NCBI GenBank assembly: GCA_016932115.1
Contig: JAFGDM010000061.1
Span: 1-44,962 of the forward strand
From: Deltaproteobacteria bacterium
GTDB lineage: Bacteria; Desulfobacterota; DSM-4660; Desulfatiglandales; HGW-15
Direction of reading: 5' to 3'
DNA: 44,962 bases
Shown here: one piece after another, positions 27,045 to 44,962 of the stretch
Layout: every line of letters starts with the position of its first letter
How positions within the stretch are numbered: position 1 is the first letter of the stretch
The notes under the pieces: model-generated
What the model saw: the letters and a program-made list of their open reading frames with translations, nothing else
What the model was told of the DNA's origin: nothing
The model's database searches: none
Made by a program: the position numbers and the translations under genes

Positions 27045-27061
27045 AGGAAGGGGGCCTCGCC

Positions 27062-27607
27062 GTGGACAGCAAGCGAAAGAAAACAAAAATAGTAAAAGAA
27101 ATAAAGGTGGATACCAGCAAATGTGTAGGCTGCAGGGCATGTGAGATAGCCTGCTCGGCCTTCCACGCCGTACCGAAATTTAGCTCGGTGAATACCGCAC
27201 GTTCCCGGATCATGGTCGTCATGGACGAATTCCGAGATATATTCGTGCCGATACGGGCCGGTGACTATGCGCAGGCGGAATGTAATGGGAGAAACCGTTA
27301 CGTGATCGACGGCAAGGAGTACGACGCTTGTACCTTCTGCCCGGCCTCCTGCCCTTCAAGGGATGCTTTTAAAGAGCCTGATTCCGGTCTTCCGCTCAAA
27401 TGCGATATGTGCGAGAGTGTCCCGCCCCTGGAAAAGCCAATGTGCGTCGACGCATGCACGTTTGGTGCCTTGACGTATGAGGAAAGGGAAGAGGAAGGGG
27501 CTGAGGAAGAAAAGCCCGGGGATATGGAGATTGTTTTCGAGGCCTTGGTAAAGAAGCATGGAAAGAAGAAAGTCATGGACACCTTCGCCCGATTGTCGAA
27601 GAGCTAA
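27062..27607 (+). CDS. bamC: BamC-like iron-sulfur subunit, module 1
   Basis: A 181-residue ferredoxin-like protein starting at GTG, 17 bases after bamB1. Cluster ligands are visible in KCVGCRACEIACSAFH, CTFCPASCPSRD and CDMCESVPPLEKPMCVDACT, enough for about three [4Fe-4S] clusters, as described for BamC. The known BamBC heterotetramer passes electrons from BamC clusters to the W site. The C-terminal extension is acidic (EEREEEGAEEEKPGD). Confidence 0.86.
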   Translation: MDSKRKKTKIVKEIKVDTSKCVGCRACEIACSAFHAVPKFSSVNTARSRIMVVMDEFRDIFVPIRAGDYAQAECNGRNRYVIDGKEYDACTFCPASCPSRDAFKEPDSGLPLKCDMCESVPPLEKPMCVDACTFGALTYEEREEEGAEEEKPGDMEIVFEALVKKHGKKKVMDTFARLSKS

Positions 27608-27638
27608 CTATCAGGCGGAAAGAAGAGGATAAGATACG

Positions 27639-28790
27639 GTGGAGACTGTAGCCCCATACAAAGAGATTGTAGATGTTATAAAGGCGAGTGGTGGAGAGGC
27701 CTTCAAGAGATGCTTTCAGTGCGGATTGTGTGATGTGGTTTGTCCGTGGAACAGGGTCAGGACATTCAGCATGCGCAAGCTGGTGCGAGAGGCGACGTTT
27801 GGTTTGACGGATATTGAAAGTGAAGACATGTGGCTTTGCACGACCTGTGGAAGATGCCCCCAGCAGTGTCCCAGGGATGTGCAACAAATAGCATCCGGAG
27901 TCGCCCTGCGCAGGATCGCTACTGAATACGGGGTTTTTCCGAAAACCGTGAAGGCCGTGCGGACTGTGGCGGGAAGCCTTGTTGGGGAAGGGAACCCTCT
28001 GAGTGAAGAGCGTTCAAAGAGGGCGAATTGGGCTGAAGGTCTTTCCGTTAACGCCTTTACGGAGGGGATGGAGATTTTGTATTTTCCGGGCTGCTACCCT
28101 AGCTATGATCCGAGACTGAAGAAGGTGGCGAGGGCTACGGCTACTATACTCAAGCGGGCTGGGGTGGATTTTGGGATTCTGGGTGTCAAGGAGAATTGTT
28201 GTGGAGAAAGCATCCGGAAGACGGGCGATGAGGAGTTGTTCAAACGGCTGGCGAGGGAAAATATCAAGGTGTTTATCGACAATGGTGTGAAGAGGATTTT
28301 GGTGTCTTCTCCGCATTGTCTTCATACCTTCAAGAACGAGTATCCTGAATTCAGGGTAAATTTTGAGGTGATCCATATCACGCAGTATTTATATGAGCTT
28401 ATAAGGGAGGGAAGGCTGGAGCTGAAAGGGGAATATGGGAAGACAGTGACGTATCATGACCCGTGCTATCTGGGTCGGCATAACGGCATTTATGATGAGC
28501 CTCGAGAGATTTTGAAGGGGGTGCCCGGTTTAGAGCTGAAGGAGATGCCTGATTTCAGGGTCAACAGTTTGTGTTGCGGAGGTGGAGGGGGCAGGGTATG
28601 GATGGAGACCCAAAAAGGGGAGAGATTTTCCGACCTCAGGATGGAGCAAGCGATGGGGGTTGGGGCCGAGTTGCTGGTGACTGCCTGCCCGTACTGCATT
28701 ACCATGTTTGAGGATAGCCGGCTGACACTCAATATGACTGAGAAGATAGAAGTTAAGGACATCACGGAGATTGTCCAGGAAGTTATTTAG
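27639..28790 (+). CDS. bamD: BamD-like HdrD/GlpC-type iron-sulfur subunit, module 1
   Basis: The 383-residue protein begins at GTG. It has two N-terminal [4Fe-4S] motifs (CFQCGLCDVVCP, CTTCGRCPQQCP) and two C-terminal CCG domains (YFPGCYPSY with ENCCGESIRKTG; YHDPCYLGRHNG with LCCGGGGGRVW). This is the HdrB/HdrD architecture, whose CCG motifs hold noncubane clusters in methanogens. In Bam complexes this subunit likely links the flavin unit BamE to BamBC. It is very similar to the second copy (about 85% identical by eye), far more than the bamB pair. Confidence 0.87.
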   Translation: METVAPYKEIVDVIKASGGEAFKRCFQCGLCDVVCPWNRVRTFSMRKLVREATFGLTDIESEDMWLCTTCGRCPQQCPRDVQQIASGVALRRIATEYGVFPKTVKAVRTVAGSLVGEGNPLSEERSKRANWAEGLSVNAFTEGMEILYFPGCYPSYDPRLKKVARATATILKRAGVDFGILGVKENCCGESIRKTGDEELFKRLARENIKVFIDNGVKRILVSSPHCLHTFKNEYPEFRVNFEVIHITQYLYELIREGRLELKGEYGKTVTYHDPCYLGRHNGIYDEPREILKGVPGLELKEMPDFRVNSLCCGGGGGRVWMETQKGERFSDLRMEQAMGVGAELLVTACPYCITMFEDSRLTLNMTEKIEVKDITEIVQEVI

Positions 28791-28822
28791 AGAACCATCC
28801 CATCGGACAAAGGCGGAGAGAA

Positions 28823-31800
28823 GTGGAAAGAGAACCAGTGGAAGAGCAGTTTTTTAGCAGCCCCGAGGGCGGTAATTTTGGAGATGTTATGGTTGTGGGA
28901 GGCGGGATCAGCGGCATTCAAGCGGCTCTTGATCTTGCCACTGCGGAATTCAAGGTTTATCTGGTTGAAAAGGCGCCGACCATTGGCGGGAAGATGGCCC
29001 AACTGGACAAGACCTTTCCCACCAACGATTGCTCCATGTGCATTGAATCCCCCAAGTTCATTGAATGTGCCAGGCATCCCAATATAGAGATCCTGACCTA
29101 TACCGAAGTCGACACCGTAAAAGGGGAAGCGGGGAACTTCAAGGTCAAGCTGATCAAAAAACCCAGATACATTAAGGAGGACAAATGCACAGGCTGCACG
29201 ACTTGTGTTGAATTCTGCCCGGTCAGGGTTCGGGATCCATATAATCAAGACCTGTCTTTGAACAAAGCCATTCATATCTACTTCTCCCAAGCTGTTCCAC
29301 TCGTCACTTATATAGACCCTGAAAGCTGCCTTTATCTTCAAGGCGAGAAATGTTCGATTTGCGCCGGAGTCTGTAAGAATAAAGCCATCGATCTTCATCA
29401 AGAGGAAGAGGAAATAGAAGTAGAGGTGGGGGCGATCATTCTGGCGCCCGGCTACGAGGTATTCGACCCTAAGTTGAAGGGTGACTATGGCTACGGGAAC
29501 TTTGAGAACGTGGTAACAAGTCTTGAGTTTGAAAGGCTTTTGTGTGCCACCGGGCCGTTCGAAGGTGAGATCTTGCGGCCTTCCGACAAGAAACATCCAC
29601 ATAACATAGCTTGGATTCACTGCGTCGGCTCCAGACGGGTGACCCCGGGCGATAACAGCTATTGTTCAGCGGTGTGCTGCACCTATACTCAAAAACAGGT
29701 GATTTTGACAAAGGACCATGACGCCGAGGCAGAGTGTACCGTATTCCATAATGACATCAGGTCCTATGGTAAGGATTTCGAGCGATTCTACCAGAGAGCG
29801 GAGAATTTACCCGGGGTTCGATTTATAAGGAGCTATGTGTCCATAGGAAGAGAGGTCAAGGAGAGCAAAAATTTAACGATAAAATATTCTACTCCGAAGG
29901 ATGGAGTAAAAGAAGAGGAATTCGACCTGGTGGTCCTGTCTGTCGGCTTGAACCCTCCCGCTGATTTTAAGAGCTTGGCAAACAAGTTCGGCATTGAACT
30001 TGATGCTCATGGATTCTGCAAGACCAATCCACTGAATGCCATGGAGACCTCTCGCCGGGGAATTTTTGTAAGCGGAGCGTTTCAGGGTCCTTTAGATATT
30101 CCTGAGTCGGTTGTGACTGCCAGCGGGGCCGGTTCTCTTTGTGGCCAAATCCTTGGTTACCGGCGGGGGAAGCTGGACAAAGAAAGAGAATATCCACCGG
30201 AAAGGACTGTATCAGGAGAGGAACCCAGGGTGGGGGTTTTTGTGTGCCATTGTGGGGCAAATATCGGAAGGGTGGTCAACGTCCCCTCGGTTGTTGAATA
30301 TGCTTCCACCTTGGACAATGTCGTCCACGCCCAGGAGAGCATCTTTGCGTGTTCTACGGACAATGCCCAGCAAATCGCGGACACGATCCGTGAAAAAAGA
30401 CTCAACCGTGTGGTTGTGGCTGCCTGTACGCCTAGGACCCATGAGCCGCTGTTCCGGGACACACTTCGTGAAGGGGGAATCAATCCCTATTTCTTTGAAA
30501 TGGCCAATATTCGGGAACAATGTTCCTGGGTTCACTCCAAAGAAAAGGAAGATGCCACAAGGAAGGCAAAGGAAATCGTGTGCATGTCGGTTGCCAGAAG
30601 CGCGCTCTTGGAGCCTTTACAGGAATTCGAGTTGCCGGTCGACAAGCGGGCATTGGTTGTAGGAGGAGGTTTGGCCGGCATGACCGGTGCTATGAGCCTT
30701 GCTGAGCAGGGATTTGAGGTTTACCTGGTGGAAAAAGATACAAACCTGGGAGGGACGGCACGAAGAATCTATTACACCTTGGAAGGGATGGATGTTCAAG
30801 CTTATTTGCGTGATGTGATCCGGAAGGTTTATCATCATCCCTCCATTCATGTTGTTACAGATGCGACTATCACCGAGGCTTCCGGTTATGTGGGCAATTT
30901 CGTAACCAAGGTGAAGTCCGGGAGAACGGCCAAGGAGATACACCACGGAGTAACCATCATTGCTACCGGCGCTGAAGAATATAAACCGACGGAATATCTT
31001 TATGGGAAAGAGGACGGGGTATTGACTCAGTTGGAGTTGGAGGAGAAGATCAATAAAAGAGAAGAAAAATTGATCAGCTCAAAGACTGTGGTGATGATCC
31101 AGTGTGTAGGCTGCAGACAGCAAGACCGAAACTACTGCAGCCGGGTCTGCTGCAGCCAGGCTATCAAGAACGCCCTGAAACTCAAAGAGATCAACCCTCA
31201 TATGGACCTATACGTCCTCTTCAGGGACATGAGAACGTACGGGTTCAAAGAGGACTATTACCGCGAAGCGTCGGAGAAGGATGTCAAATTCATCCGCTAT
31301 GAGCCGGATGACAAACCCCAGGTAGAAGCGGTTGAGGAGGAAGGTCGCCGCGTTCTAAGGGTTACCGTGACCGACGACATTTTAGGGAAGAAGCTTCAAA
31401 TAGACGCTGACGCCGTCGCTCTGGCGGCCGCCGTTATTCCGTCGGCAGGAACTCAGGAAATATCCCGGTTGTTCAAGGTCGCTTTGAATCCCGATGGTTT
31501 CTTCCAGGAAGCGCACGTAAAACTAAGACCTGTTGACTTTGCTGCGGAAGGCGTTTTCCTTTGTGGGACGGCTCATTATCCCAAGCATATATCGGAGACG
31601 ATCAGCCAAGCATACGGAGCTGCCGGCCGGGCTGTAACGATTCTCACGAAAGATTCAGTCATAGCTTCCGGTGCTATTTGCGAGGTTAATGAGAGTGACT
31701 GTGTATCCTGCGGGGCATGTATTTCAGTTTGTACTTATGGTGCTATAGAATTTGTTGATACACCACGAGGCAAAAAAGCCAGGGTCAACCCTGTTCTCTG

Positions 31801-31951
31801 TAAGGGAGACGGCCTCTGTAATTCAAGATGTCCGACAGGGGCTATTTCACTGAAGCACTTTACTGATGAAGAGGTCTTCTGCGAAATCGACGCGGCGCTT
31901 CACAGCCCTGTGGAATTTCCAGCAATAAACAAAGTCGGCATTGCCGATTGA
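28823..31951 (+). CDS. bamE: BamE-like HdrA-type flavin and iron-sulfur subunit, module 1 (Cys form)
   Basis: The 1,042-residue protein starts at GTG. The N-terminal part (about 20-460) is HdrA-like: dinucleotide site [31 protein letters not shown] and ferredoxin motifs [12 protein letters not shown] and KCSICAGVCKN. A second HdrA-like half (about 466-1042) opens with [18 protein letters not shown], has a second FAD site (VVGGGLAGMTGAMS) and ends in CVSCGACISVCT and [12 protein letters not shown] clusters. HdrA is the FAD bifurcation site in heterodisulfide reductase complexes, so BamE is the presumed bifurcating subunit. Here the CSMC motif is all cysteine, unlike the module 2 copy. Confidence 0.88.
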   Translation: MEREPVEEQFFSSPEGGNFGDVMVVGGGISGIQAALDLATAEFKVYLVEKAPTIGGKMAQLDKTFPTNDCSMCIESPKFIECARHPNIEILTYTEVDTVKGEAGNFKVKLIKKPRYIKEDKCTGCTTCVEFCPVRVRDPYNQDLSLNKAIHIYFSQAVPLVTYIDPESCLYLQGEKCSICAGVCKNKAIDLHQEEEEIEVEVGAIILAPGYEVFDPKLKGDYGYGNFENVVTSLEFERLLCATGPFEGEILRPSDKKHPHNIAWIHCVGSRRVTPGDNSYCSAVCCTYTQKQVILTKDHDAEAECTVFHNDIRSYGKDFERFYQRAENLPGVRFIRSYVSIGREVKESKNLTIKYSTPKDGVKEEEFDLVVLSVGLNPPADFKSLANKFGIELDAHGFCKTNPLNAMETSRRGIFVSGAFQGPLDIPESVVTASGAGSLCGQILGYRRGKLDKEREYPPERTVSGEEPRVGVFVCHCGANIGRVVNVPSVVEYASTLDNVVHAQESIFACSTDNAQQIADTIREKRLNRVVVAACTPRTHEPLFRDTLREGGINPYFFEMANIREQCSWVHSKEKEDATRKAKEIVCMSVARSALLEPLQEFELPVDKRALVVGGGLAGMTGAMSLAEQGFEVYLVEKDTNLGGTARRIYYTLEGMDVQAYLRDVIRKVYHHPSIHVVTDATITEASGYVGNFVTKVKSGRTAKEIHHGVTIIATGAEEYKPTEYLYGKEDGVLTQLELEEKINKREEKLISSKTVVMIQCVGCRQQDRNYCSRVCCSQAIKNALKLKEINPHMDLYVLFRDMRTYGFKEDYYREASEKDVKFIRYEPDDKPQVEAVEEEGRRVLRVTVTDDILGKKLQIDADAVALAAAVIPSAGTQEISRLFKVALNPDGFFQEAHVKLRPVDFAAEGVFLCGTAHYPKHISETISQAYGAAGRAVTILTKDSVIASGAICEVNESDCVSCGACISVCTYGAIEFVDTPRGKKARVNPVLCKGDGLCNSRCPTGAISLKHFTDEEVFCEIDAALHSPVEFPAINKVGIAD

Positions 31952-31965: not shown

Positions 31966-32721
31966 ATGGGTGCAGGGGTTGTTTTTAAACCAAGGATCTT
32001 AGGTTTTCTATGCAATTGGTGAGGATACTCGGCTGCTGACCTGGCTGGAGTTTCCAGACTGCAATATACGACTGAAATCAAGCTGATCCGCCTCATGTGC
32101 ACCGGCAGAGTGGATTTGGCGTTCATACTTCGAGCTTTCTCAAATGGAGCAGACGGGGTGTTGGTTGTTGGTTGTTGGCCCGGCGAATGCCATTATCTTA
32201 CTGAGGGAAATTACGGTGCATTGAGCATGACTCATCTGTGTAGAAAATTACTGGATTACATAGGGGTGAACCCCGAGAGATTGGGGCTTGAATGGGTGTC
32301 AGCCTCCGAGGGAAGCCGTTTCGCGGAAGTCGTGAATGACTTTGCGAAAAAGGTAAAGGACTTGGGGCCTTTCGGCAACGCCGAAAATGGATTAAAGATG
32401 AAACTTGAAGCAGTCGACAATTTACTCCCCTACATTAAGCTGGTCGAAAGGGAGAAACTAAGAGTGCGGTTTAAGACAGAAGAAGAATATAACGAATTCT
32501 TCACGAGTGATGAGATAGATAGGATATTTCAAGAAGTAATTGTAAATAAATTGGAAATTAGTCGGATCATGAGACTCCTGCGAGAAAAGCCCCTCTCGAC
32601 CGGGGAAATTTCCGGGCTTTTGGGCGTAACCCCATCTGAAGCATCAAAGCATCTTGGCAGTTTAGCAAGACAAGGATTAATAAGGTTTGACGAAAGCCTG
32701 AAGCGTTTTGTTCCTGCCTAG
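31966..32721 (+). CDS. bamF: BamF-like MvhD-type selenoprotein with C-terminal winged helix, module 1
   Basis: The full reading frame is 251 residues if TGA at 32020-32022 is read as selenocysteine (residue 19, motif CNWU; MvhD proteins have CNWC here). After it come AADLAGVSRLQYTTEIKLIRL, MCTGRVD and GCWPGECHYLTEGNY, typical of the MvhD/FrhD [2Fe-2S] subunit. ATG 31966 has GAGGAGAGAG upstream and follows bamE1 by 14 bases. The C-terminal segment (about 192-251, EISGLLGVTPSEASKHLGSL) is a winged-helix-like domain. MvhD transfers electrons from hydrogenase or Nuo-like units to HdrA. Gene callers usually start this gene falsely at 32095. Confidence 0.88.
32020..32022 (+). other. In-frame TGA, selenocysteine codon of bamF1
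   Basis: TGA follows TGC AAT TGG, giving C-N-W-U. The reading frame is open and conserved on both sides, and the family has Cys at this position. A hairpin with a G-first loop lies 22 bases downstream (32045-32057). BamF selenoproteins have been proposed in Geobacter and Desulfococcus benzoate metabolism. Confidence 0.9.
32045..32057 (+). promoter_or_regulatory. SECIS-like hairpin of bamF1
   Basis: CTGGA-GTT-TCCAG forms a 5-bp stem with a 3-base loop beginning with G, 22 bases after the Sec codon, within the window used by bacterial SelB. The same hairpin is conserved in the bamF2 copy (43282-43294), although third codon positions elsewhere vary. Confidence 0.65.
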
Positions 32722-32775
32722 AGCGAGAGAATTGGAACCAAATTAGGGGAGATGAAAAGGAATAGGACAGCGGCT

Positions 32776-33228
32776 ATGGATAAGGGCAAAATCGATAAGA
32801 TTATAGACAAATATGAGGGCGACGCCGGTTCACTCATTCAGGCATTACTGGAGATTCAGAGCGAAAATCGCTGGCTTCCCAAAGAGGTTTTGGCGAAGGT
32901 AAGCAAGAAATTGAACGTGCCCTTGAGCCGCATACAGCACATCGTGACATTTTATAAGGCCTTTAGTTTAGTTCCTAAAGGGCGTCACGAAGTTCACGTG
33001 TGCACGGGCACGGCCTGTCATGTTCGCGGAGCGCCGCGTCTTCTCGACTCGGTTAAAGACCTGATTGGAATAAGTCCCGGGGAGACGGACATGGATTTAA
33101 AGTATAGCCTGGAGACTGTGAACTGCGTCGGCTGCTGCGCTTTAGGACCGGTGATGGTAATCGATGGTGAATATTACGGAAAGATGTCACCGGCCAAGTC
33201 TGAAGATGTGTTGAAAAACTATGATTAA
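32776..33228 (+). CDS. bamG: BamG-like NuoE-type [2Fe-2S] subunit
   Basis: A 150-residue thioredoxin-like ferredoxin homologous to NuoE/HoxE: helical N-terminus (SLIQALLEIQSENRWLPKEV), LSRIQHIVTFYKAFSLVPKG, and cluster ligands VCTGTACHVRGA and NCVGCCALGPV. I prefer ATG 32776 (AGGACAG upstream) to ATG 32752, which touches its own AGGGGAG. It partners with BamH in the NADH or ferredoxin-linked electron entry module. Only module 1 has it. Confidence 0.85.
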   Translation: MDKGKIDKIIDKYEGDAGSLIQALLEIQSENRWLPKEVLAKVSKKLNVPLSRIQHIVTFYKAFSLVPKGRHEVHVCTGTACHVRGAPRLLDSVKDLIGISPGETDMDLKYSLETVNCVGCCALGPVMVIDGEYYGKMSPAKSEDVLKNYD

Positions 33229-33237
33229 GGGAAAATT

Positions 33238-35175
33238 ATGGCAAGGATAAATTCACCTGCTGAATTGGAAGAATTCAGGAAGGACATCATATCAAAGAAA
33301 GATCCAAATAGGCCGTGCATTGCTGTATGCACCGGAACAGGTTGCCTCGCTCTGGGAGCAGCAAATGTGGTTGCCGCCTTCAAAGAGGAGATTGAAAAAC
33401 AGAAACTGCAAAGTAAAGTGGATGTCGTAGATATCAGGGAAACAGGCTGCCCTGGTTTCTGCGAACGAGGGCCTATAATTGTAATTTACCCTGAGGAGAT
33501 ATGTTATCTTCAGGTGCAGCCCGGCGATGCCAAGGAGATCATTTTTGAGACTATACTTGGCAAGAAGATCATTGATAGGTTGCTTTACGTCGATCTCACC
33601 GCCGACAAGAAGGTAGTCCATGAATCCGAGATACCGTTCTATAAGAATCAGAAACGCCTCCTTCTCGGCAATAATATTAAAATCGATCCGAAAAGCATTG
33701 ATGACTATCTTGCACTCGGCGGGTATTCCGCATTGGTTAAAGCCCTTTTTCATCTGACCCCGGAGCAAGTTTTGGAGCTTGTGAAAAATTCGAAATTGAG
33801 AGGGAGGGGAGGAGCCGGATTTCTTACGGGGGTAAAATGGGAATTTGCTCGCAGAAGTCCTGATAAGACAAAGTATGTGATCGTCAACGCCGATGAGGGA
33901 GACCCGGGGGCATTTATGGATAGGGCTCTACTTGAGGGGAATCCCCACGCAGTTCTTGAAGGACTCATTATTGGGGCTTATGCCATCGGATCTCATGAAG
34001 GTTATTTCTATGTTCGTCAGGAATATCCTTTAGCTGTGAAGAATATCGGGATTGCTATCAAACAGGCTGAGGAATATGGTTTTGTTGGTAAAAATATTCT
34101 AGGGTCCGGCTTTGATTTCACAATTAAAGTGCATCAGGGCGCCGGCGCTTTCGTTTGCGGTGAGGAAACGGCTCTTCTAATGTCTCTCGAAGGCAAACCG
34201 GGCGAGCCAAGGCCGAGGCCGCCATATCCGGCCGTGAAAGGGCTCTGGGGCAAACCGACGAACATCAATAATGTGGAAACCTGGGCTAATGTTCCGTTGA
34301 TTATTAAGAATGGGTCTGATTTCCTGACCTCCATAGGCACTGAGGGAAGCAAAGGCACCAAGATCTTTTCATTGGTCGGCAAGGTGAACAATACCGGCCT
34401 CGTGGAAGTGCCGATGGGCATCACCCTGAGAGATATTATCTACAAGGTAGGAGGCGGCATCCCCGGAGGCAAGAAGTTCAAGGCCGTACAGACAGGTGGT
34501 CCATCGGGCGGATGTATCCCTGAAGAATTCTTGGATATACAGGTTGATTTTGACGAACTCGCCAAGGTCGGCGCAATTATGGGTTCAGGCGGCATGATAG
34601 TAATGGATGAAGATACCTGTATGGTTGATGTCGCCAGGTACTTTCTTAATTTCCTAACCGATGAGTCATGCGGCAAATGTACCCCATGCCGTGAAGGCAT
34701 CAGGCAGATGCTTAAAATTCTTACTAATATAAGTAAGGGAAGGGGAAGAGAAGGCGACATTGAGCTTTTGGAAGAGCTAGCCCGGACAACCGGGGATGCT
34801 TCACTTTGTGCCTTAGGTCGCACTGCCCCTAACCCGGTTCTAAGCACGATACGCTACTTCAGAGACGAGTATGAGGCCCATATCAAGGACAAGAGATGCC
34901 CGGCTTATGTCTGCAAGGAGCTGATCTCATACTATATTGATCCGGATAAGTGCCAGGCCTGCATGATTTGCCTCAGGAAATGCCCTGCTGAGGCGATCGA
35001 TGGCGGTAAGAACCGGATCCACATAATTGACCAAAACAAATGCACAAAGTGCGGGACCTGCTTTGAGGTTTGTCCCTCTCGTTTTGGTGCGGTGACCAGG
35101 CTCTCCGGTGAGCCCGTTCCGCCTCCTTTCCCTGAAGAAAAAAGAACTATTGTCAGAAAGAGTAAAGACAAATGA
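33238..35175 (+). CDS. bamH: BamH-like NuoF-type flavin subunit with C-terminal ferredoxin domain
   Basis: The 645-residue protein has three parts. An N-terminal [2Fe-2S] thioredoxin-like domain (CTGTGCLALGA, RETGCPGFCERG) precedes the NuoF FMN/NADH core with GRGGAGFLTGVKWEFAR, NADEGDPGAFMDR, GEETALLMSLEGKPG and CGKCTPCREG. The C-terminal two-cluster ferredoxin domain (about 562-645) has CQACMICLRKCP and CTKCGTCFEVCP. It resembles HydB/NfnB-type bifurcation partners, so it may link NAD(H) to BamE. The domain at 562-645 is closely repeated at the end of bamF2. The stop overlaps bamI (ATGA). Confidence 0.9.
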   Translation: MARINSPAELEEFRKDIISKKDPNRPCIAVCTGTGCLALGAANVVAAFKEEIEKQKLQSKVDVVDIRETGCPGFCERGPIIVIYPEEICYLQVQPGDAKEIIFETILGKKIIDRLLYVDLTADKKVVHESEIPFYKNQKRLLLGNNIKIDPKSIDDYLALGGYSALVKALFHLTPEQVLELVKNSKLRGRGGAGFLTGVKWEFARRSPDKTKYVIVNADEGDPGAFMDRALLEGNPHAVLEGLIIGAYAIGSHEGYFYVRQEYPLAVKNIGIAIKQAEEYGFVGKNILGSGFDFTIKVHQGAGAFVCGEETALLMSLEGKPGEPRPRPPYPAVKGLWGKPTNINNVETWANVPLIIKNGSDFLTSIGTEGSKGTKIFSLVGKVNNTGLVEVPMGITLRDIIYKVGGGIPGGKKFKAVQTGGPSGGCIPEEFLDIQVDFDELAKVGAIMGSGGMIVMDEDTCMVDVARYFLNFLTDESCGKCTPCREGIRQMLKILTNISKGRGREGDIELLEELARTTGDASLCALGRTAPNPVLSTIRYFRDEYEAHIKDKRCPAYVCKELISYYIDPDKCQACMICLRKCPAEAIDGGKNRIHIIDQNKCTKCGTCFEVCPSRFGAVTRLSGEPVPPPFPEEKRTIVRKSKDK

Positions 35176-35807
35176 ACGAAATGCTTTTACAGATTGATGG
35201 AAAAGAAGTTAAGGCAAGCGAAGGAATGACCATTCTGGAGGCTGCACGAAGTGTCGGGATATCGATTCCCACACTTTGTCACCACGAGAAATTAAACCCT
35301 TATGGGGCTTGCCGCATTTGCACTGTGGAAGTAGAAGCCGGCGGGAGGACAAATTTTGTTCCTGCCTGCATTTACCCGGCGGCAAGTGGTTTGGTGGTAA
35401 GAACCAGATCTGAGAAAATAGATAAAACCCGCAAAATGATCTTGGAACTGATGCTCTCTCACGCTCCGGATGCCCCGGCATTAAAAGATTTGGCTAAAGA
35501 ATACGGTGCAGACAGAGACCGTTTTGAAAAGGAACCGTCATTTTGCATTCTTTGTGGTCTATGTGTAAGATACTGTGCTGAAGTCAAGAAGAAGAGTGCT
35601 GTCGGATTTATTGACAGAGGACCAAATCGGGAGATAAATTTCATTCCCGAGATCGCATCCAAGGAGTGCTGGAACTGCAAGGAGTGCTTTCCACTCTGCC
35701 CAACATCGTATCTACAGACAGCTTACCATTTAACGGAAGCGCTCGCGTTTCCCTCATCGTCTTTCCTTCGAACTCGCCTCAGAGGGACCCCCATGCTTGG
35801 TGCTTAA
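35172..35807 (+). CDS. bamI: BamI-like NuoG-type iron-sulfur subunit with repeat-derived C-terminus
   Basis: The 211-residue protein resembles the N-terminus of NuoG/HydA: a [2Fe-2S] domain (IPTLCHHEKLNPYGACRICT) followed by CILCGLCVRYC and CWNCKECFPLCP clusters. It starts 4 bases before the bamH stop (ATGA), implying translational coupling. The last residues (about 193-211, AFPSSSFLRTRLRGTPMLGA) do not look like the family and are encoded by repeat copy C, whose sequence supplies the stop codon. In other Bam clusters this subunit completes the G-H-I electron entry module. Confidence 0.85.
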   Translation: MNEMLLQIDGKEVKASEGMTILEAARSVGISIPTLCHHEKLNPYGACRICTVEVEAGGRTNFVPACIYPAASGLVVRTRSEKIDKTRKMILELMLSHAPDAPALKDLAKEYGADRDRFEKEPSFCILCGLCVRYCAEVKKKSAVGFIDRGPNREINFIPEIASKECWNCKECFPLCPTSYLQTAYHLTEALAFPSSSFLRTRLRGTPMLGA

Positions 35808-36150: not shown

Positions 36151-38160
36151 ATGAGGTACGCAGAGACAGGGTTTAATTTAGAGATTGATCTGTCCCGGGG
36201 AAGCATTGAAAGGGTGGAGACTGACTCAAGATTAACCGAGCTTCATCTTGGGGGGCTGGGCACCAACAGCAAGATATTGTGGGACAGGGTTCCACCTGAG
36301 ACCGAGCCCTTTTCTCCTGATAATTTGTTGATCTTCGGGACGGGTCTCTTGTGCGGCACACCGGCCCCCGGTGCGAATCGGACCATTATTACAACCTATT
36401 CTCCTCAGACCTTGTACATGGGCTATTCCATGATGGGAGGGTTTTTGGCGCCGGAACTGAAGTATGCCGGGTATGACAAAGTGATTTTTCGCGGCAAGTC
36501 TCCCAACATGGTTTACCTGTGGATCAACAATGACAAGGTGGAAATACGGGATGCCTCTCATCTCCGGGGCAAAGGCGCTGTCGAAACTTCGGAGATCATT
36601 CGACGGGAGTTGAAGGACCCCAAAGCCCAGGTCGCTGCCATCGGACTGGCCGGTGAAAACCGGGTGTACATGGCCAGCATAGAGCAAGGCCGGTCCAGCG
36701 CCAGCCGATTGGGCCTGGGCGCCGTCATGGGCGACAAAGGGCTAAAGGCCGTTGCCGTTCGCGGAACGAAGGACATTAACATCGCCCGCCCGGCTGAATT
36801 CATGCAGCTCTGCAACGAGGTGCTACAGTACATCAAAGTCCGGGCCCCCAACCTTATCCCTGAAGTCATGCCGATTTTGGCCGGGCTTGGGTCTCCCCAG
36901 GAGATGGCCCATTACGATGAGAAGTGGCACACCGAGAATTTCATGTGGGGGAATGCCCGGGTCCGGAGAAAAGAATTCTGGAACGACGAGATCGAAAAGA
37001 TGTGGAAGAACACGCTGGAGAGCGTTCGGACTCGGCTTATTAGCTGTTACAACTGCCCGATGAAGTGCGGGGCCATTATTTCCGTCCCCGGAATTTCCAC
37101 CTACATGATGAAATGCTTCACGAAATTGACCTACGCCATGGCGGCCTTTGCCGAGGACTCCGAATTTGGTTTTAAGATCGCGCAGCAGGCCACGGAATAT
37201 GGGGTGGATGGGTTCTCTATGCCGCAAACCATGGCTTTTGCCTTTGAGCTAAAAGAGGCCGGGATCTTGACGGACGCGGACTTTGAAGGATGCCCTACCG
37301 ACAAGGAGGGAAGATTTTATTGGTTGCTGGACCGTATTGTCCGACGGGAAGGAATAGGGGATGTGCTGGCCGACGGCACCTATTGGGCGGCCAAGCAGAT
37401 CGGCAAGGGCGCCGAAGAATATGCTCACAACAATATCAAGAAACACGAACAGCTCCCTCTCAAGCTGGGCATGCTGAACCCTATCTATTTCCTGATGTAT
37501 TGTACCGGGGAGAAGAGTAACATCACACAAATCGAAGGGAATTTCCCCCAAGCGCCTTTTTCCACATTGGAGCTCAAAGAAGCCTTTGTGAAAGACTGGG
37601 TCCAAGCTCCGAATGACAGGTTTAAGCAGTATGTTCTGGACTGGGAATTCCGAGGGGAGCACTCCATGCCCTTCTACCCGCCGCCCGAAGCCTGTTGTGA
37701 AATCGTGGAATGGCAGGAAAAGATGCACCATATCGATGACGCGCTCGGGTTGTGCGCCGGCTTGTCGTCATTTCCCCTGAAACCTCCCTACCATATCCAC
37801 AATCTGCCCCTTTTTATCTCAGCGGCGACAGGTATGGACATGGATGAAGACGGGCTGACGCACATCTTCAACAGAAACCGGAACCTGGTGAGAGCCATCA
37901 ATGTGAGAAGAGGTTTGAGACGGGCCGATGAGAAGCCGCCGGAGGACCATTGGAAGAAGAGATTTCCCGAGCTTGAGACGAAGCTCCTTGATACCTATTA
38001 CGCGTTCAAAGGATGGAATCAGGACGGCATTCCTACCAAGGAGTCATTGCAGGCCCTGGGGTTGGACTATGTCGCTGAGGACTTCCTCAAGAGAGGAATC
38101 TTGACAAACGAGGACAGGGCTTTTTCCAACGAAACTGCGTCGGAAACAGAGGAGAAATAA
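36151..38160 (+). CDS. bamB: BamB-like tungsten (AOR-family) subunit, module 2
   Basis: The 669-residue AOR-family protein is paralogous to the module 1 copy: LGGLGTNSKILWDRVPPETE, GTPAPGANRTII and [4Fe-4S] ligands CYNCPMKCGA plus DALGLCAG. Glu251, His254, His260 and Cys322 are present; as I recall, Glu251, His260 and Cys322 match by number the residues around tungsten in Geobacter BamB (the other His there is 255), so this copy looks like the canonical benzoyl-CoA reductase catalytic subunit. The ATG has GGAAGAGGAG upstream. It opens a second operon from its own promoter. Confidence 0.88.
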   Translation: MRYAETGFNLEIDLSRGSIERVETDSRLTELHLGGLGTNSKILWDRVPPETEPFSPDNLLIFGTGLLCGTPAPGANRTIITTYSPQTLYMGYSMMGGFLAPELKYAGYDKVIFRGKSPNMVYLWINNDKVEIRDASHLRGKGAVETSEIIRRELKDPKAQVAAIGLAGENRVYMASIEQGRSSASRLGLGAVMGDKGLKAVAVRGTKDINIARPAEFMQLCNEVLQYIKVRAPNLIPEVMPILAGLGSPQEMAHYDEKWHTENFMWGNARVRRKEFWNDEIEKMWKNTLESVRTRLISCYNCPMKCGAIISVPGISTYMMKCFTKLTYAMAAFAEDSEFGFKIAQQATEYGVDGFSMPQTMAFAFELKEAGILTDADFEGCPTDKEGRFYWLLDRIVRREGIGDVLADGTYWAAKQIGKGAEEYAHNNIKKHEQLPLKLGMLNPIYFLMYCTGEKSNITQIEGNFPQAPFSTLELKEAFVKDWVQAPNDRFKQYVLDWEFRGEHSMPFYPPPEACCEIVEWQEKMHHIDDALGLCAGLSSFPLKPPYHIHNLPLFISAATGMDMDEDGLTHIFNRNRNLVRAINVRRGLRRADEKPPEDHWKKRFPELETKLLDTYYAFKGWNQDGIPTKESLQALGLDYVAEDFLKRGILTNEDRAFSNETASETEEK

Positions 38161-38181
38161 GGTGAAGAGGTGGTAGCCGTC

Positions 38182-38730
38182 ATGGGTGAGAAGAAAAAGA
38201 AGATCGTCAAAACAATCAAAATTGATGTCGATAAATGCAACGGTTGCCGGGCCTGTGAGATGATCTGCTCAGCCTTTCATGCTCAACCGAAATACAGCAG
38301 CAATAATCCCGCAAGGTCTCGCATTCGGGTGATTCACGATCCTCTCCGAGACGTCTATGTCCCCGTATACGCCGGCGAGTATGCGAAGGCCGAATGCATG
38401 GGCAGAGACAAATACGTGATCGACGGAAAGGAGTACGACGAGTGTGCCTTTTGCAGGGCCTCCTGCCCGTCCAGAGATATTTTCAAAGAGCCCGATTCAG
38501 GGCTTCCTCTCAAATGCGATATGTGCGAAGACGATCCCCGGCAGGAGACGCCCTTGTGTGTTCAGTGGTGCTTGAATGATGCCCTGATTTACGAAGAGAG
38601 AGAAGAGGAAATCGAAGAAGAAGTGAAACAGGAGGACATGGAGATCGGATTGGAGTCCATGATCGACAAGTATGGATTGGACAAGATCATGGAGAGCGTG
38701 GCTCGGATTTCCCTTTCAAAAAAAGCTTAA
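38182..38730 (+). CDS. bamC: BamC-like iron-sulfur subunit, module 2
   Basis: A 182-residue protein close to the module 1 BamC. The cysteine pattern is preserved: KCNGCRACEMICSAFH, CAFCRASCPSRD and CDMCEDDPRQETPLCVQWC, for about three [4Fe-4S] clusters. I prefer ATG 38182 with AAGAGG about 12 bases upstream; GTG 38170 is an alternative that adds four residues. It is expected to bind BamB2 and deliver electrons to the W site. It lies 21 bases after bamB2. Confidence 0.86.
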   Translation: MGEKKKKIVKTIKIDVDKCNGCRACEMICSAFHAQPKYSSNNPARSRIRVIHDPLRDVYVPVYAGEYAKAECMGRDKYVIDGKEYDECAFCRASCPSRDIFKEPDSGLPLKCDMCEDDPRQETPLCVQWCLNDALIYEEREEEIEEEVKQEDMEIGLESMIDKYGLDKIMESVARISLSKKA

Positions 38731-38765: not shown

Positions 38766-39917
38766 GTGGAGATTGTTGTCCCCTACAAAGAGATCGTTGA
38801 CGTCATCAAGGCGAGCGGCGGAGACGCCTTCAAAAGATGCTTTCAGTGCGGACTGTGCGATGTGGTCTGCCCGTGGAACAGGGTCAGGACCTTTAGCATG
38901 CGCAGGCTGGTCCGGGAGGCAACCTTCGGGTTGACGGACATTGAAAGTGAAGATATGTGGCTTTGCACGACCTGCGGGAGATGCCCCCAGCAGTGCCCCC
39001 GGGACGTGAAACAAATCGAGTCCGGAGTGGCCTTGCGCAGGATTGCCACGGAATACGGCGTTTTCCCCAAATCAGTGACACCGATCCGAACGGTTCGGGG
39101 AAGCCTGGTGGGGGAAGGGAACACCTTGGGGGAGGAACGGGCCAAGCGGGGGGATTGGGCCAAAGGCCTTTCGGTGAACGAGTTTAGCGAGGGTATGGAA
39201 ATTTTGTATTTTCCCGGCTGCTATCCCAGCTATGACCCAAGGTCAAAGAAGCTTGCGGTGGCCACGGCCACGATCCTGAACAAGGCGGGGGTGGATTTTG
39301 GGATTCTGGGCACCAAGGAGAACTGCTGCGGGGAGAGCATCCGCAAGACGGGGGATGAGGAAGTCTTCAAGCGTTTGGCCAGGGAGAATATCAAGACCTT
39401 TGTGGATCACGGGGTGAAGAAGATTTTGGTCAGTTCCCCTCATTGTTACCACACGTTCAAGAACGAGTATCCGGATTTTATGGTGAACTTTGAGGTGATT
39501 CACATGTCCCAGTTTTTGTTTGGGCTTATGAAAGAGGGTAAACTGGAGATCGGCAAGGAATATGAGAAGACGGTGACTTATCATGACCCCTGCTACCTGG
39601 GTCGTCACAACGGCATTTTGGAGGAGCCCCGGGAAATTCTGAAGAGAGTACCCGGGCTTACGTTGAACGAGATGCCCGACTGCCGGATGGACAGTCTGTG
39701 TTGCGGAGGGGGAGGAGGCAGGGTTTGGATGGAGACCCAGAAGGGGCAGAGATTTTCCGACCTCAGGCTGGAGCAAGCCGTAGGGGTCGGGGCCGAGGTG
39801 CTGGTGACGGCGTGCCCGTATTGCATAACCATGTTTGAGGATAGCCGGTTGACCCTGAACCTCACGGAGAAGATCAAAGTGAAGGATCTTACGGAAATCA
39901 TCGCGGAGGTGATTTAG
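38766..39917 (+). CDS. bamD: BamD-like HdrD/GlpC-type iron-sulfur subunit, module 2
   Basis: The 383-residue product has the same length and motifs as BamD1: CFQCGLCDVVCP, CTTCGRCPQQCP and two CCG domains (ENCCGESIRKTG; LCCGGGGGRVW). It starts at GTG. Identity to BamD1 is about 85% by eye, and even the intergenic stretch before bamE (CATCCCAT-GGACAAAGGCGGA) is conserved between copies, so the two D-E junctions are recent or conversion-linked duplicates. Its role is electron transfer between BamE2 and BamBC2. Confidence 0.87.
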   Translation: MEIVVPYKEIVDVIKASGGDAFKRCFQCGLCDVVCPWNRVRTFSMRRLVREATFGLTDIESEDMWLCTTCGRCPQQCPRDVKQIESGVALRRIATEYGVFPKSVTPIRTVRGSLVGEGNTLGEERAKRGDWAKGLSVNEFSEGMEILYFPGCYPSYDPRSKKLAVATATILNKAGVDFGILGTKENCCGESIRKTGDEEVFKRLARENIKTFVDHGVKKILVSSPHCYHTFKNEYPDFMVNFEVIHMSQFLFGLMKEGKLEIGKEYEKTVTYHDPCYLGRHNGILEEPREILKRVPGLTLNEMPDCRMDSLCCGGGGGRVWMETQKGQRFSDLRLEQAVGVGAEVLVTACPYCITMFEDSRLTLNLTEKIKVKDLTEIIAEVI

Positions 39918-39950
39918 GAGAATCATCCCATAGGACAAAGGCGGATCAAA

Positions 39951-42900
39951 GTGGAAAAAGAACTCATCGAACAGTTTCGTAAGAGTGTCTCGGACAAGGA
40001 TTTTGGAGACGTCATGGTGGTGGGGGGAGGGATCAGCGGGATTCAAGCCTCCCTGGACCTGGCCACAGCCGGCTTCAAGGTTTACCTGGTGGAGAAAGCC
40101 CCGAGCATCGGCGGCCGCATGGCGCAGCTGGACAAAACCTTTCCCACCAATGACTGCTCCATGTGAATCCTCGCCCCTAAACTGGTCGAGGTCGGCCGGC
40201 ACCCCAACATCGAAGTTCTGACCTATACGGAAGTTCACCGCGTCGAAGGAGCGGTGGGTGACTTCAACGTGACGCTGATTAAAAAGCCTAGGTATATTCT
40301 GGAGGAAAAGTGCACGGGTTGTACGACCTGTGTTGAATATTGCCCTGCCAAATACCCGGATGAGTACAATCAGGAGATATCGAAGAACAAAGCGGTCCAC
40401 ATCTACTTCGCTCAAGCCATTCCACTGATCGCCTACATTGATGAAAGCTGTCTGTATCTCAAAGAGAACAAATGTCGGATTTGCGAAGGGGTCTGCAAGA
40501 ATAACGCCATCGACCTGAAACAAACGCCGAAGAAAAGAGAAATTACCGTAGGCGCAATCCTCCTGGCGCCCGGCTTTGAGCCCTTTGATCCGAAGACCAA
40601 GGAAGAATATCACTACGGGGAGTTCGCGAATGTGGTCACCAGTATGGACTATGAGCGACTGTTGTGCTCCACAGGACCATACTCAGGGGAGATCCTGCGC
40701 GGTTCCGACATGAAGCATCCCCACAAGGTCGCCTGGATTCAATGCGTGGGCTCCAGGCGGGTCACTCCCGGTGAAAACAGCTATTGTTCGGCTGTGTGCT
40801 GCACCTATACCCAGAAACAGGTCATTCTGACAAAAGATCATCATGCAGAGGCCGAATGTACCGTCTTTCACAACGACATTCGGTCCTACGGGAAGGATTT
40901 TGAGCGCTATTACGAAAGGACGGAACAACTTCCGGGCGTGCGCTTTATCCGAAGCTACGCCTCCATTGTGAGAGAGGACCCGAACACCAAGAATGTCACG
41001 GTACGTTATTCCACCTTTGACGAGGGGGTCAAAGAGGAAGCATTCGATATGGTGGTCCTTTCGGTCGGGTTGAATCCGCCCGTCGATGCTAAGGACGTGG
41101 CGGAAAAATTCGGCATCCAGCTCGATCCGAACAATTTCTGCAAGCTGAACCCCGTCAATCCCATGGAGAGCAACAGGCCCGGAATCTATGTGAGCGGTGC
41201 CTTTCAGGGTCCCATTGATATTCCGGAGTCGGTTTTCAGCGCCAGCGGCGCAGGCTCCCAAATCGGCCAACTCCTTGACTATCGGCGAGGCAATCTTGCC
41301 GAGGAAAGGGTCTATCCAAGTGAAAGGGATGTTTCCAAGGAGGAGCCGAGAATAGGGGTCTTTGTGTGTCACTGCGGGGCCAATATCGGAAGGATCGTCA
41401 ATGTTCCAGAAACAGTCGAGTACTGCAAAACCCTGCCCAGTGTCGTTTACGCTCAGGAACAGCTGTTTTCGTGTGCCACCAACTCCGCCAGAGAAATCAC
41501 GGATGTTACAAAGGAAAAAGGGCTGAATCGAGTGGTCATTGCCGCCTGCTCCCCCAGGACTCTTGAACCGCTGTTCCGCGACACGGTTCGGGAGGCGGGA
41601 ATCAATCAGTATTTCTGTGAGATGGCAAATATCCGGGAGCACGATTCCTGGGTCCACTCCAAAGAAAAGGAAGAGGCCACGGAGAAAGCCAAGGACATCA
41701 TTCGCATGTCCGTGGCCCGAGCCTGTCATTTGGAGCCGCTGCAAGAGTTTGATCTCCCGGTCAACAAAGCGGCGCTTGTAGTAGGCGGAGGGGTGGCAGG
41801 CATGAACTGCGCTCTCTCTATAGCCAACCAGGGGCATGAGGTTCATTTGGTGGAAAAGGCTAAAGAGCTTGGCGGCATGGTAAGAAGGGTCTATTCCACC
41901 CTGGAGGGGCTGGACGTGCAGGCCTATTTACACGATTTGATCGCAAAGGTTTATGGGCACCCGCTCATCCATGTGTATCATGATGCGACCATCACAGAGG
42001 CTACAGGGTATGTCGGCAACTTCGTGACCGTGGTGAAGTCTGAAACGGGAGTCGCCGAGATCAAACACGGGGCAAGCGTCATTACCATTGGAGCTGATCT
42101 CTACACGCCGACCGAATATCTATACGGACAAGATGAACGAGTCATGACCCATCTGGATCTGGAAGGCCGAATCGCCGAGAGGGATGAAAAGATCGTAAAC
42201 GCAAAAAGCCTTGTGATGATTCATTGCGTGGGCTGTAGAAATGAAGACAGAAACTACTGCAGCCGGATTTGTTGCAGCCAGTCGGTAAAGAACGCTTTGA
42301 GGCTCAAAGAGATCAACCCTCAGATGGATATCACCATTCTTTTCAGGGATATGAGGACCTATGGGTTCAAAGAGGATTTTTACCGGGAAGCCTCCAACAA
42401 AGATGTCAAATTCATTCGCTATGAACCTCAAGAGCCGCCTCAGGTGGAAGCGGGCGAGTCGGACGAGGGTCGGCCCGTACTGAAGGTTACTGCGCCGGAC
42501 TATGTTATGGGGAAAAAGCTGGTCATTGATGCTGATATCCTTGCTTTGGCGGCCGCCGTCATTCCCTCTGCGGCAACGAATGAAGTGGCCGCACTGTTCA
42601 AGGTCACGTTGAGCCCGGACGGCTTTTTCAAAGAAGCCCACGTTAAACTCAGACCGGTTGAGTTTGGTACGGAAGGAGTGTATCTGTGCGGACTCGCTCA
42701 CTACCCCAAGTTCATGCAGGAAACGATCAACCAGGCTTATGGAGCGGCAGGCCGGGTTTTAACCCTTCTTTCTCATGACACGGTCGTCGCCTCCGGATCT
42801 GTGGCCCAGGTCAACGAGAGCCGGTGTATAGGGTGCGGGGCCTGTGTTTCCGCGTGTACTTATGGGGCTTTGGACCTCCGAGACACGAAACAGGGGAAAA

Positions 42901-43076
42901 AAGCCATGGTGAACCCCGTTCTGTGCAAAGGAGACGGTCTCTGCAATTCAAAGTGTCCCACGGGGGCGATTCAGTTGAAGCATTATACCGATCAAGAGCT
43001 TTTGAGTGAAATTGATGCCATGGCAACGGAGGAAGAGATCTTGCCGGAGATGGATGCTGCGGTTGGAGATGTGTAG
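39951..43076 (+). CDS. bamE: BamE-like HdrA-type flavin subunit, selenocysteine form, module 2
   Basis: Reading TGA at 40164-40166 as Sec gives a 1,041-residue protein colinear with BamE1. Residues 1-71 ([24 protein letters not shown]) join without gap to [16 protein letters not shown], so the HdrA motif CSMC becomes CSMU at residue 72. The remainder has [23 protein letters not shown], the second HdrA block ([18 protein letters not shown]), a second FAD site ([16 protein letters not shown]) and C-terminal clusters [12 protein letters not shown] and [13 protein letters not shown] hairpin with GGTC in the loop follows the TGA. HdrA selenoproteins are known in methanococci and some deltaproteobacteria. 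Not a pseudogene: the frame is intact over 3.1 kb. Confidence 0.88.
40164..40166 (+). other. In-frame TGA, selenocysteine codon of bamE2
   Basis: The context is GAC TGC TCC ATG TGA ATC CTC GCC; the module 1 paralogue has TGC in this place. Homology continues uninterrupted on both sides in the same frame. The nearby hairpin at 40182-40199 resembles a bacterial SECIS. Confidence 0.88.
40182..40199 (+). promoter_or_regulatory. SECIS-like hairpin of bamE2
   Basis: CTGGTC (40182-40187) pairs with GGCCGG (40194-40199) over 6 bp (two G-U) around the loop GAGGTC, which contains the GGU motif known from the Escherichia coli fdhF SECIS. The stem begins 15 bases after the Sec codon. An alternative stem CCTCG/CGAGG (40169-40173 with 40187-40191) is also possible. 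Confidence 0.7.
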
Positions 43077-43122
43077 CAGGTTGTTTAAAGACATTGGATG
43101 AAAGGCGCGCGTTTTGGGTGCG

Positions 43123-43153: not shown

Positions 43154-43202
43154 TCCCTGTGAAGAGAAAGCCGTAACCACGGAAAGAAGAGGGAAAAACT
43201 AG

Positions 43203-44042
43203 ATGAGTGCAAGACCTAAATTCAAGCCTAAATTGTTGGGTTTCGTGTGCCATTGGTGAGCGTACGGGGCTGCTGATCTGGCTGGAGTTTCCAGACTTCA
43301 ATACACGACTGAAATGAGGCTGATCCGCGTCATGTGCTCCGGCAGAGTGGATATGTCCTTTGTCCTCAGAGCCTTTTTGAACGGAATCGATGGGGTCTTC
43401 ATTGGGGCCTGCCGCTTGAATGAATGCAATTATGTGACTCAGGGAAATTATCATGCCCTCAACATGGTGCTTTTGTCGAAAAGAGTCCTCGAACACATGG
43501 GGCTGAACCCGGAACGATTAAAAATCGAATTCATGTCGGCCGCCGACGCCAACATTTTTGCGGAAGGCGTCAATGCTTTTGTCAAGAAGGTGAAATCGTT
43601 GGGGCCCCTTGGGGAAGGCGAGGGAATCAATCGACATGAACTCAAGTCCAGGCTTGTAGAGATCTCTAAACTCGTCCCCTACTTTAAGATGGCTAACCAG
43701 GAGAAACTGGCCTCCCACCTCAAAACACCGGAGGAGTACGATGGGCTATTCACGAAAGAGGAGATCGACAGGCTCTTTACTGAAATGGTCTCCTACTATA
43801 TCGATCCGGAGAAGTGCCAGGCCTGTATGACTTGCCTGAGAAGGTGTCCTGTAGAGGCGATTGTCGGGGGCAAGAACAGGATCCACGTCATTGACCAGGA
43901 TAAATGCATCAAATGCGGAACCTGTTTTGAAGCCTGCCCTCCTCGCTTCGGCGCGGTGAAAAAAATTTCCGGCGAGCCTGTTCCGGCCCCTATTCCCGAA
44001 GAAAAAAGAACGATAGTGAGAAAGAGTAAAGAAGCGAGTTAA
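43203..44042 (+). CDS. bamF: BamF-like MvhD-type selenoprotein fused to a BamH-type ferredoxin domain, module 2
   Basis: With TGA 43257-43259 as Sec (residue 19, motif CHWU), the product has 279 residues. Residues 1 to about 196 are MvhD-like and colinear with BamF1 (AADLAGVSRLQYTTEMRLIRV, MCSGRVD, ACRLNECNYVTQGNY). From about 197 to the end it is a two-cluster ferredoxin domain (CQACMTCLRRCP, CIKCGTCFEACP) nearly matching the C-terminus of BamH (its residues 562-645) down to the final RTIVRKSK. The winged helix of BamF1 is absent. AGAAGAGGGAAAAACTAG supplies the ribosome binding site. The 3' end overlaps the convergent DUF362 gene by 4 bases. Confidence 0.88.
43257..43259 (+). other. In-frame TGA, selenocysteine codon of bamF2
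   Basis: TGC CAT TGG TGA gives C-H-W-U, the same place as CNWU in BamF1. Sequence upstream (PKFKPKLLGFVCHW) and downstream continues the MvhD family in frame. The SECIS-like hairpin lies at 43282-43294. Confidence 0.9.
43282..43294 (+). promoter_or_regulatory. SECIS-like hairpin of bamF2
   Basis: CTGGA-GTT-TCCAG, identical to the bamF1 hairpin and 22 bases after the Sec codon. The loop starts with G, as required for SelB recognition in bacterial SECIS elements. Confidence 0.65.
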
Positions 44043-44962
44043 TCCTCCTTCAGGACCTCCAAGAGCATTTTTTCGAGTTTGTCTTCGGCGTTCTCGTCTG
44101 CATACCGGGGTCTTTGAACGTCAGGGAAGAAGCTGAAGAGGCCTTTCATAATCACTTCAGCATGGGGCGGACAGCCGGGCAGATGTTTTCCCATCCCTGC
44201 ATGGTGCTGCTGGCAGATGCCCATGAAGACGTTCGTCTCTTCCGGGTTTGGTGTCACGTCCGTGTCGGGCCCTAGAAATACATTCACCCTTTTTTCGAAG
44301 GGTCGATCAATGAGAAGTCTCTCAGGGTTTTTCGGATCAGGCCGTCTCAGTTTATGCAAAACATAGTGCAAATAGCCTCTGCAACCCCCACAGGCGCGGC
44401 CGTCATGAATTAGAAAGTTTTGCCCGCCGCTCACAACGACCTCCGCTTCTTTGAAGGCGTCCCTCACCTCCTCCACAGAGGCGCCGACGATGTGAATCTT
44501 CTCCGCCTCGATGGGCCCCAGTCCTTGCATATAGGCGAACATTACCGGAGGGGAAAGAGCAGGCTCGAAGCCCATGATCCTCATGGTCACGGCGTCAACG
44601 GCCACGGGATTGGTTCCGCCGATAAGCAGATTCATGGGTTTCGGCTTTCCGTAGACCGGCCCGAAATCCTCCTGAGCCGTGAGGCCGTCCACGATAACGA
44701 GATTTGATTTTACGAGATGATGGATATTGACTAGATTTTGCCAGAGCCCGAAGAAATGGCTCATATATTTCTCGATAGGAGGGACGGCACCCTGCAGGTT
44801 CTTGATGCTCAAAGATACGAGAGCGGCGAAATGGGTCTTCATGACCGGAAGGTTTATGATGACATCCGCCTGCTCCAAGGTGACCGGAATCTCTCGTGAG
44901 AGCATCCTTTTCCCGTTAGGGACCCTTTTTCTAATCAAACTGTCCGTGTTGAGGTCCACAAG
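44039..44962 (-). CDS. DUF362-family protein, 5' end outside the window
   Basis: A minus-strand frame of at least 307 residues, open to the right edge. ADVIINLPVMKTHFAALVSL, SIKNLQGAVPP and NLLIGGTNPVAVDAVTMRIMG are signature blocks of DUF362 proteins, whose biochemical role is poorly known. Near the C-terminus, HDGRACGGCRGYLHYVL and GICQQHHAGMGKHLPGCPPH carry paired cysteines that might bind a metal or cluster. In this family about 90 residues usually precede the KTH motif, so the start is probably outside; the GTG near the edge is unlikely. It is convergent with bamF2 and overlaps its stop codon (TTAA). Confidence 0.8.
   Translation of the reverse strand, partial: LVDLNTDSLIRKRVPNGKRMLSREIPVTLEQADVIINLPVMKTHFAALVSLSIKNLQGAVPPIEKYMSHFFGLWQNLVNIHHLVKSNLVIVDGLTAQEDFGPVYGKPKPMNLLIGGTNPVAVDAVTMRIMGFEPALSPPVMFAYMQGLGPIEAEKIHIVGASVEEVRDAFKEAEVVVSGGQNFLIHDGRACGGCRGYLHYVLHKLRRPDPKNPERLLIDRPFEKRVNVFLGPDTDVTPNPEETNVFMGICQQHHAGMGKHLPGCPPHAEVIMKGLFSFFPDVQRPRYADENAEDKLEKMLLEVLKED

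Follow-up and report, generated by a model that had tools for sequence, protein, structure and literature searches.

How class II benzoyl-CoA reductase is driven at -622 mV is under debate, and the proposals differ on the role of BamGHI. In one model ferredoxin is the donor, NAD+ and menaquinone are the acceptors and BamGHI is the NAD+ output (PMC12096430), whereas in an alternative model BamGHI is the input for NADH plus ferredoxin (PMC9304861); the high-potential acceptor has been called unknown (PMC11971306). The window analysed here (the whole stretch of DNA, 44,962 nucleotides) holds two bam modules in tandem, B1-C1-D1-E1-F1-G-H-I (25089-35807) and B2-C2-D2-E2-F2 (36151-44042), both on the forward strand. 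The second has no bamGHI in its operon, in agreement with the first-pass annotation, which had described a module without NuoEF, and it ends in a BamF fused to a ferredoxin-type tail.

The first, complete module consists of bamB1 (25089-27044), bamC1 (27062-27607), bamD1 (27639-28790) and bamE1 (28823-31951), which together span 25089..31951, and of bamF1 (31966..32721; MvhD, linker and winged helix), the NuoE-like bamG (32752..33228; assigned from its ORF and operon comparison), the NuoF-like bamH (33238..35175) and the NuoG-like bamI (35172..35807). By its Pfam domains, BamH has an FMN/NADH domain and a C-terminal 2[4Fe-4S] domain, and the start of bamI overlaps the bamH stop (ATGA). The second module consists of bamB2 for the catalytic W subunit (36151..38160), the polyferredoxin gene bamC2 (38170..38730) and the HdrD-like bamD2 (38766..39917), the latter two being operon-conserved ORFs, the double HdrA-like bamE2 (39951..43076) and bamF2 (43203..44042). 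The best match of BamB2 is the solved G. metallireducens BamB (4z3w), over the full length and with 1127 bits as against 695 bits for BamB1. The alignment is gap-free across both sites, QEM..WH and MMKCF, whose roles are taken from PMC12096430. To judge by this alignment, the canonical catalytic subunit is that of the fusion module. BamB1 of the complete GHI module is the divergent one, with an unconserved Glu251 region, and may have another substrate. An in-frame TGA (Sec) is also found in BamE2 (SMUILAPK, 40164-40166), where BamE1 has Cys (SMCIESPK); Sec is hence present in both E and F of the fusion module.

Directly adjoining the bam cluster upstream are an FdhD-like gene and an IclR-type regulator (22914-24719). 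Further upstream, 1618-11951 encodes a PilW-like pilus assembly gene and a 2633-aa protein with Flg_new_2 (InlB-like) repeats in its first 500 residues. A DUF362 protein gene on the reverse strand (44039-44962) is convergent to bamF2 with the stops abutting, and continues past the contig end.

The interval 43203-44042 encodes one intact protein of 279 aa only when the TGA at 43257-43259 (residue 19, CHWU) is decoded as Sec. The coordinates first assigned to BamF2 hold on this reading, which the first-pass annotation did not mention. The position is an in-frame TGA in 66 of 68 homologous F2 genes, BamF1 likewise has a Sec codon at 32020-32022, and the genome encodes a tRNA-Sec (74.9 bits). An Rfam scan around the bamF2 Sec codon gave chance matches only, and a SECIS element was not found. 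Pfam places an FlpD/MvhD domain of the [2Fe-2S] type at residues 12-134 (43236..43604; PF02662, 1e-44, 151.9 bits against a gathering score of 22.3; fold match to MvhD 5odc_D with a TM(target) of 0.85) and two 4Fe-4S motifs at residues 198-250; among the NCBIfam models listed, none was passed by F2. The MvhD cysteines C16, C19(U), C45, C70 and C75, as well as all eight cluster cysteines of the tail, are invariant across 39 F2 sequences. In the PDB, the fold neighbours of the predicted structure (pLDDT 83, pTM 0.77) are MvhD first and then HydB, NfnB and StnB, which match the tail.

Residues 1-193 of BamF2 match BamF1 (~51% overall), and the likeness stops at EEIDRLF, past which BamF1 enters an ArsR-type HTH, a winged helix, as had been noted from the sequence at the outset. 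With Pfam the C-terminal HTH is absent from F2, HTH_5 (9.6e-8) being present in F1 only. At the junction (EEIDRLF-TEM|V-SYYIDP, 43776..43793) begins the tail (43782..44039), which aligns without gaps with the C-terminal ferredoxin tail of BamH (34918..35172), residues 194-277 against 561-644 and up to EEKRTIVRKSK; the boundaries first given for this match were right to within a few residues. The two tails are ~77% identical in DNA, and identity is 89, 91 and 52% at codon positions 1, 2 and 3. As third positions are saturated, the duplication must be old. When the tail was searched against the whole genome, BamH came second to BamF2 itself (E=6.5e-46, 79% identity), and the next of 20 ferredoxin-like domains scored 2.3e-16. 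Derivation of the tail from a stand-alone ferredoxin was rejected, the best other ferredoxin domain of the genome reaching 48% as against 79% for BamH. There was no sign of gene conversion of the window F2 tail by its own BamH, the BamH tails of other genomes being equally close. An assembly artefact was likewise rejected, since many independent assemblies carry the identical fusion.

The fusion is widely distributed. In the class to which the window belongs (85 genomes), the F2 fusion was found in 33 genomes, the HTH-type BamF (F1) in 21 and both in 7; in a sample of the phylum (395 genomes, classed by the extent of the match, with part of the loci fetched) the numbers were 61, 51 and 12. A GTDB scan revealed the fusion also in Chloroflexota, Bacillota, Gemmatimonadota and a Spirochaetes MAG. 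Dethiosulfatarculus sandiegensis is among the carriers of F2. Wherever the upstream sequence reaches far enough, F2 is located after bamE, mostly in B-C-D-E-F2 order, and this arrangement without GHI occurs in 70+ loci. None of about 90 F2 loci has bamG-H-I after F2, relics only being seen in a few, and bamG follows the HTH-type BamF in all 28 bam operons with readable downstream DNA. The fusion occurs in many distant genomes, the outcome that the first-pass annotation had named as refuting its account, and BamF2 is therefore an old and widespread BamF variant; its distribution and constant gene order indicate that the fusion is a conserved alternative to HTH-GHI and no local accident. In the open literature, no earlier description of the fusion was found.

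Some loci deviate from this pattern. In Bacillota, L102 and L108 (Pelotomaculum terephthalicicum, Desulfoscipio) have F1-like gene(s) upstream of bamE and the F2 fusion downstream, and L102 also has F fragments at 4886-5000 and 6470. A third BamF type (~203 aa), seen in L189 (G016) and L190 (G009), consists of MvhD and linker and lacks both the HTH and the ferredoxin tail; it is placed behind bamBCDE, and the sequence at hand shows no bamGHI. A GNAT-family acetyltransferase gene lies behind F2 in L238 (G094), and L068, L180, L211, L053 and L088 have a similar gene start; bamK of G. metallireducens is annotated as an N-acetyltransferase (PMC1924859).

We put at roughly 0.6 the probability that BamF2 is a BamF variant which originated by an ancient deletion and defines a class II benzoyl-CoA reductase free of the NAD(H) module and fed by ferredoxin via the BamH-derived tail. 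An in-frame deletion in a bamF-G-H-I operon would have excised the HTH together with bamG and ~560 codons at the 5' end of bamH, with bamI initially retained behind the fusion and later lost in several lineages. The product would be a short complex, BamB2C2D2E2F2, without the NAD(H)-binding BamGHI. Electrons from reduced ferredoxin would enter the two [4Fe-4S] clusters of the BamF2 tail and move via the [2Fe-2S]/Sec site of MvhD to the FAD of the HdrA-like BamE2. Bifurcation at this FAD would send one electron through BamC2 to the W cofactor of BamB2, where benzoyl-CoA is reduced, and the other via BamD2/E2 to a higher-potential acceptor (quinone or another, not NAD+ at BamH). In effect, the fusion would keep the ferredoxin-type clusters of BamH, drop its FMN/NAD(H) part and connect ferredoxin to MvhD and the BamE2 flavin. 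Ferredoxin as the partner, the direction of flow and bifurcation are all inferred for the F2 complex. The proposal that the fusion opened a direct entry for ferredoxin has to be modified: as the donor of canonical Bam is already thought to be ferredoxin (PMC12096430, PMC11971306), this entry would not have been gained by the fusion, and the part which stands is that a ferredoxin-type tail was kept and the NAD(H) branch dropped. Somewhat less firmly, we lean towards a wider view in which the module represents an undescribed, widespread five-subunit class II reductase, devoid of the NAD(H) module and fed directly by ferredoxin through the BamF-BamH tail fusion, for which NAD(H) is dispensable and in which the entry cassette (tail or HTH-GHI) was swapped more than once.

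The partner of the tail could be another docked protein rather than a soluble ferredoxin. MvhD of the known Hdr complexes serves hydrogenase or formate dehydrogenase, and the BamF2 tail might likewise exchange electrons with a fixed protein partner such as one of these enzymes or a membrane quinone module. Downstream genes vary among genomes, however, with no conserved extra subunit gene behind F2, and the tail is of the type of the C-terminal clusters B3/B4 of HydB, the proposed ferredoxin-reducing site of HydABC (PMC9499530). A fixed partner is thus considered rather unlikely.

A deletion running from the HTH through bamG and the 5' part of bamH is expected to leave bamI directly behind F2, and scars of bamI are found there. 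All 71 readable F2 sequences show one and the same junction spacing. The longest relic, in G052 (L061/L207), covers 142 model positions (E=4.7e-36) and begins at the first bamI base in the same ATGA overlap as in bamH/bamI; it is broken by a stop codon and a frameshift, and the F2 gene in front of it is itself truncated. Shorter relics were detected in G028 (L054/L208; 45 positions, E=1.2e-4) and G040 (L041/L210; 17/21 bases matching), these three genomes belonging to one genus. Weaker remnants occur in G007 and G076 (14-15/21 bases, chance 0.004 each with 71 loci tested). A member of a different family, G094 (L238), has two bamI pseudogene fragments ~520 bases downstream of F2, beyond the acetyltransferase gene; their identities are 74% and 69% (E 5e-17 and 1e-10). 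Neither the roughly 90 F2 loci nor a search for BamI across 68 genomes yielded an intact F2-bamI pair. The in-frame deletion proposed in the first-pass annotation is backed by these scars directly behind F2, and an ancient origin by deletion is thus supported by the comparison of loci. It counts against such an origin that an intact pair was not seen in these searches and that the bamI relics look young, which requires repeated loss of bamI, late to judge by the relics. Separately, the genome with the decayed F2-bamI locus has a further, isolated bamI fragment (G052:C1:3076292-3076534; residues 119-199, 85% identical).

The phylogenetic trees were built for the two halves of BamF2. In the tail tree, a split with 98/98 support sets the tails of F2 and of the BamH type apart from those of FlxB-type NuoF, as expected if the tail is of the BamH type. 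Separate trees had been proposed with the prediction that the tail clusters with BamH C-termini; the tails do cluster with BamH-type tails, but the window F2 tail lies among F2 tails and not with the window BamH, and 30 BamH-type tails group together at 92/90. In AU tests on 82 columns, neither all F2 tails as one clade (p=0.26) nor the pair of window F2 and BamH tails as a clade (p=0.16) was rejected, the finer order and the choice between single and multiple origin being beyond the resolution of this number of columns. In the tree of the N-terminal half, the HTH-type F sequences are a paraphyletic group with respect to the main F2 clade (98/86), and 18 members of the HTH-GHI type form a clade inside F2 (97/92). 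This nesting means that either cassettes were exchanged or the fusion arose anew on at least one further occasion.

Such exchange lends some weight to the possibility that bamI reached F2 secondarily, by recombination of the F2 tail with a bamH-bamI locus, in which case the scars would not date the fusion. The last 21 codons of the L041 F2 point the same way, being 94% identical to the BamH of another genome as against 85% for the rest of the tail. The scars nevertheless come from separate lineages, one genus accounting for L061, L054 and L041 and a different family for L238, and the derived bases ATGAGAG shared by the relics are absent from every bamI start examined. Secondary acquisition of bamI therefore has only a modest chance of being correct, and the BamH origin of the tail would be unaffected by it.

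Alternatively, BamF2 might be an F subunit that still docks on BamGHI from another operon, its tail merely aiding the docking. The window and 6 further genomes of the class do hold both modules, the tail is a copy of a part of BamH, and in NaphS2 bamB-F and bamG-I occupy separate clusters (PMC2988823). Against this, 26 of the 33 F2 genomes of the class are without F1. The relatives set includes 19 genomes with F2 only, and a BamH-type NuoF was detected in none of them. In G021 and G022 NuoF-like proteins are missing altogether, so that the F2 tail is the sole BamH-like sequence of either genome. G033, a single contig with two F2 modules, has no BamH-type protein; its unrelated NuoF proteins reach at most 57% over most of their length, and a 320-aa fragment from a split gene comes to 66%. 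In 65 of 66 F2-only genomes there is no BamI at 60% or above. These absences come mostly from MAGs, and the pattern is carried by many genomes, one of them a single contig. Because the F2-only genomes have no BamH or BamI, F2 modules likely function without a need for BamGHI, and docking on a distant BamGHI is improbable. The question put in the first-pass annotation, whether BamF2 binds BamGHI in co-purification, largely falls away, BamGHI being absent from most F2 genomes.

A recent deletion local to this genome, which the 77% DNA identity of two tails in one window might suggest and to which the wording of the first-pass annotation points, is next to impossible, as the same fusion and junction recur in dozens of genera of several phyla, the third codon positions of the two tails are far diverged and the window F2 is nearest to that of G007 (83%).

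Organisms whose sole Bam complex has no NAD(H) site would be a natural deletion experiment separating the proposals for BamGHI. The F2 module is smaller and may be simpler to purify and reconstitute. For annotation, the fusion of BamF to the tail could serve to flag GHI-independent Bam complexes, and missing bamGHI in genomes with the fusion would be no sign of an incomplete pathway. If the reading of BamF2 as the entry point of an NAD(H)-free reductase is true, biological ring reduction beyond the usual redox window would proceed without a need for NAD(H).

Homology with BamBCDEFGHI of G. metallireducens extends to BamB2, C2, D2, E2 and the MvhD portion of F2, and BamF is of the Sec type, but the F2 operon is without BamG, H and I, and the HTH of BamF is replaced in F2 by the BamH-type ferredoxin tail; the annotation of Gmet_2083 reads delta subunit plus HTH (PMC1924859). 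Having neither BamH nor BamI, the F2-only genomes fall outside the eight-subunit class II benzoyl-CoA reductase with NAD(H)-binding BamGHI. MvhD/VhuD of Hdr complexes (5odc, 7bkb, 8rvu) share the fold and cysteine pattern of BamF2 residues 6-137 and the HdrA-like neighbour; these proteins, 130-141 aa long, have neither linker nor ferredoxin tail, and hydrogenase or formate dehydrogenase serves them, whereas BamF2 has both a Bam-specific linker and the tail. After BamH, the best sequence and fold neighbours of the tail are the C-terminal 2[4Fe-4S] domains of HydB, NfnB and StnB (Bfu-type; 7q4w, 9bp5, 8oh5). There the domain is carried on a NuoF-like FMN/NAD(H) subunit, whereas BamF2 lacks the FMN/NAD(H) part and carries the domain on MvhD. 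Type Ia HdrA (PMC12054007) is likewise a fusion, in an Hdr-type bifurcating complex, that changes the way in which MvhD is served; in that case MvhD is fused to HdrA, whereas in BamF2 MvhD is fused to a ferredoxin domain and BamE remains separate.
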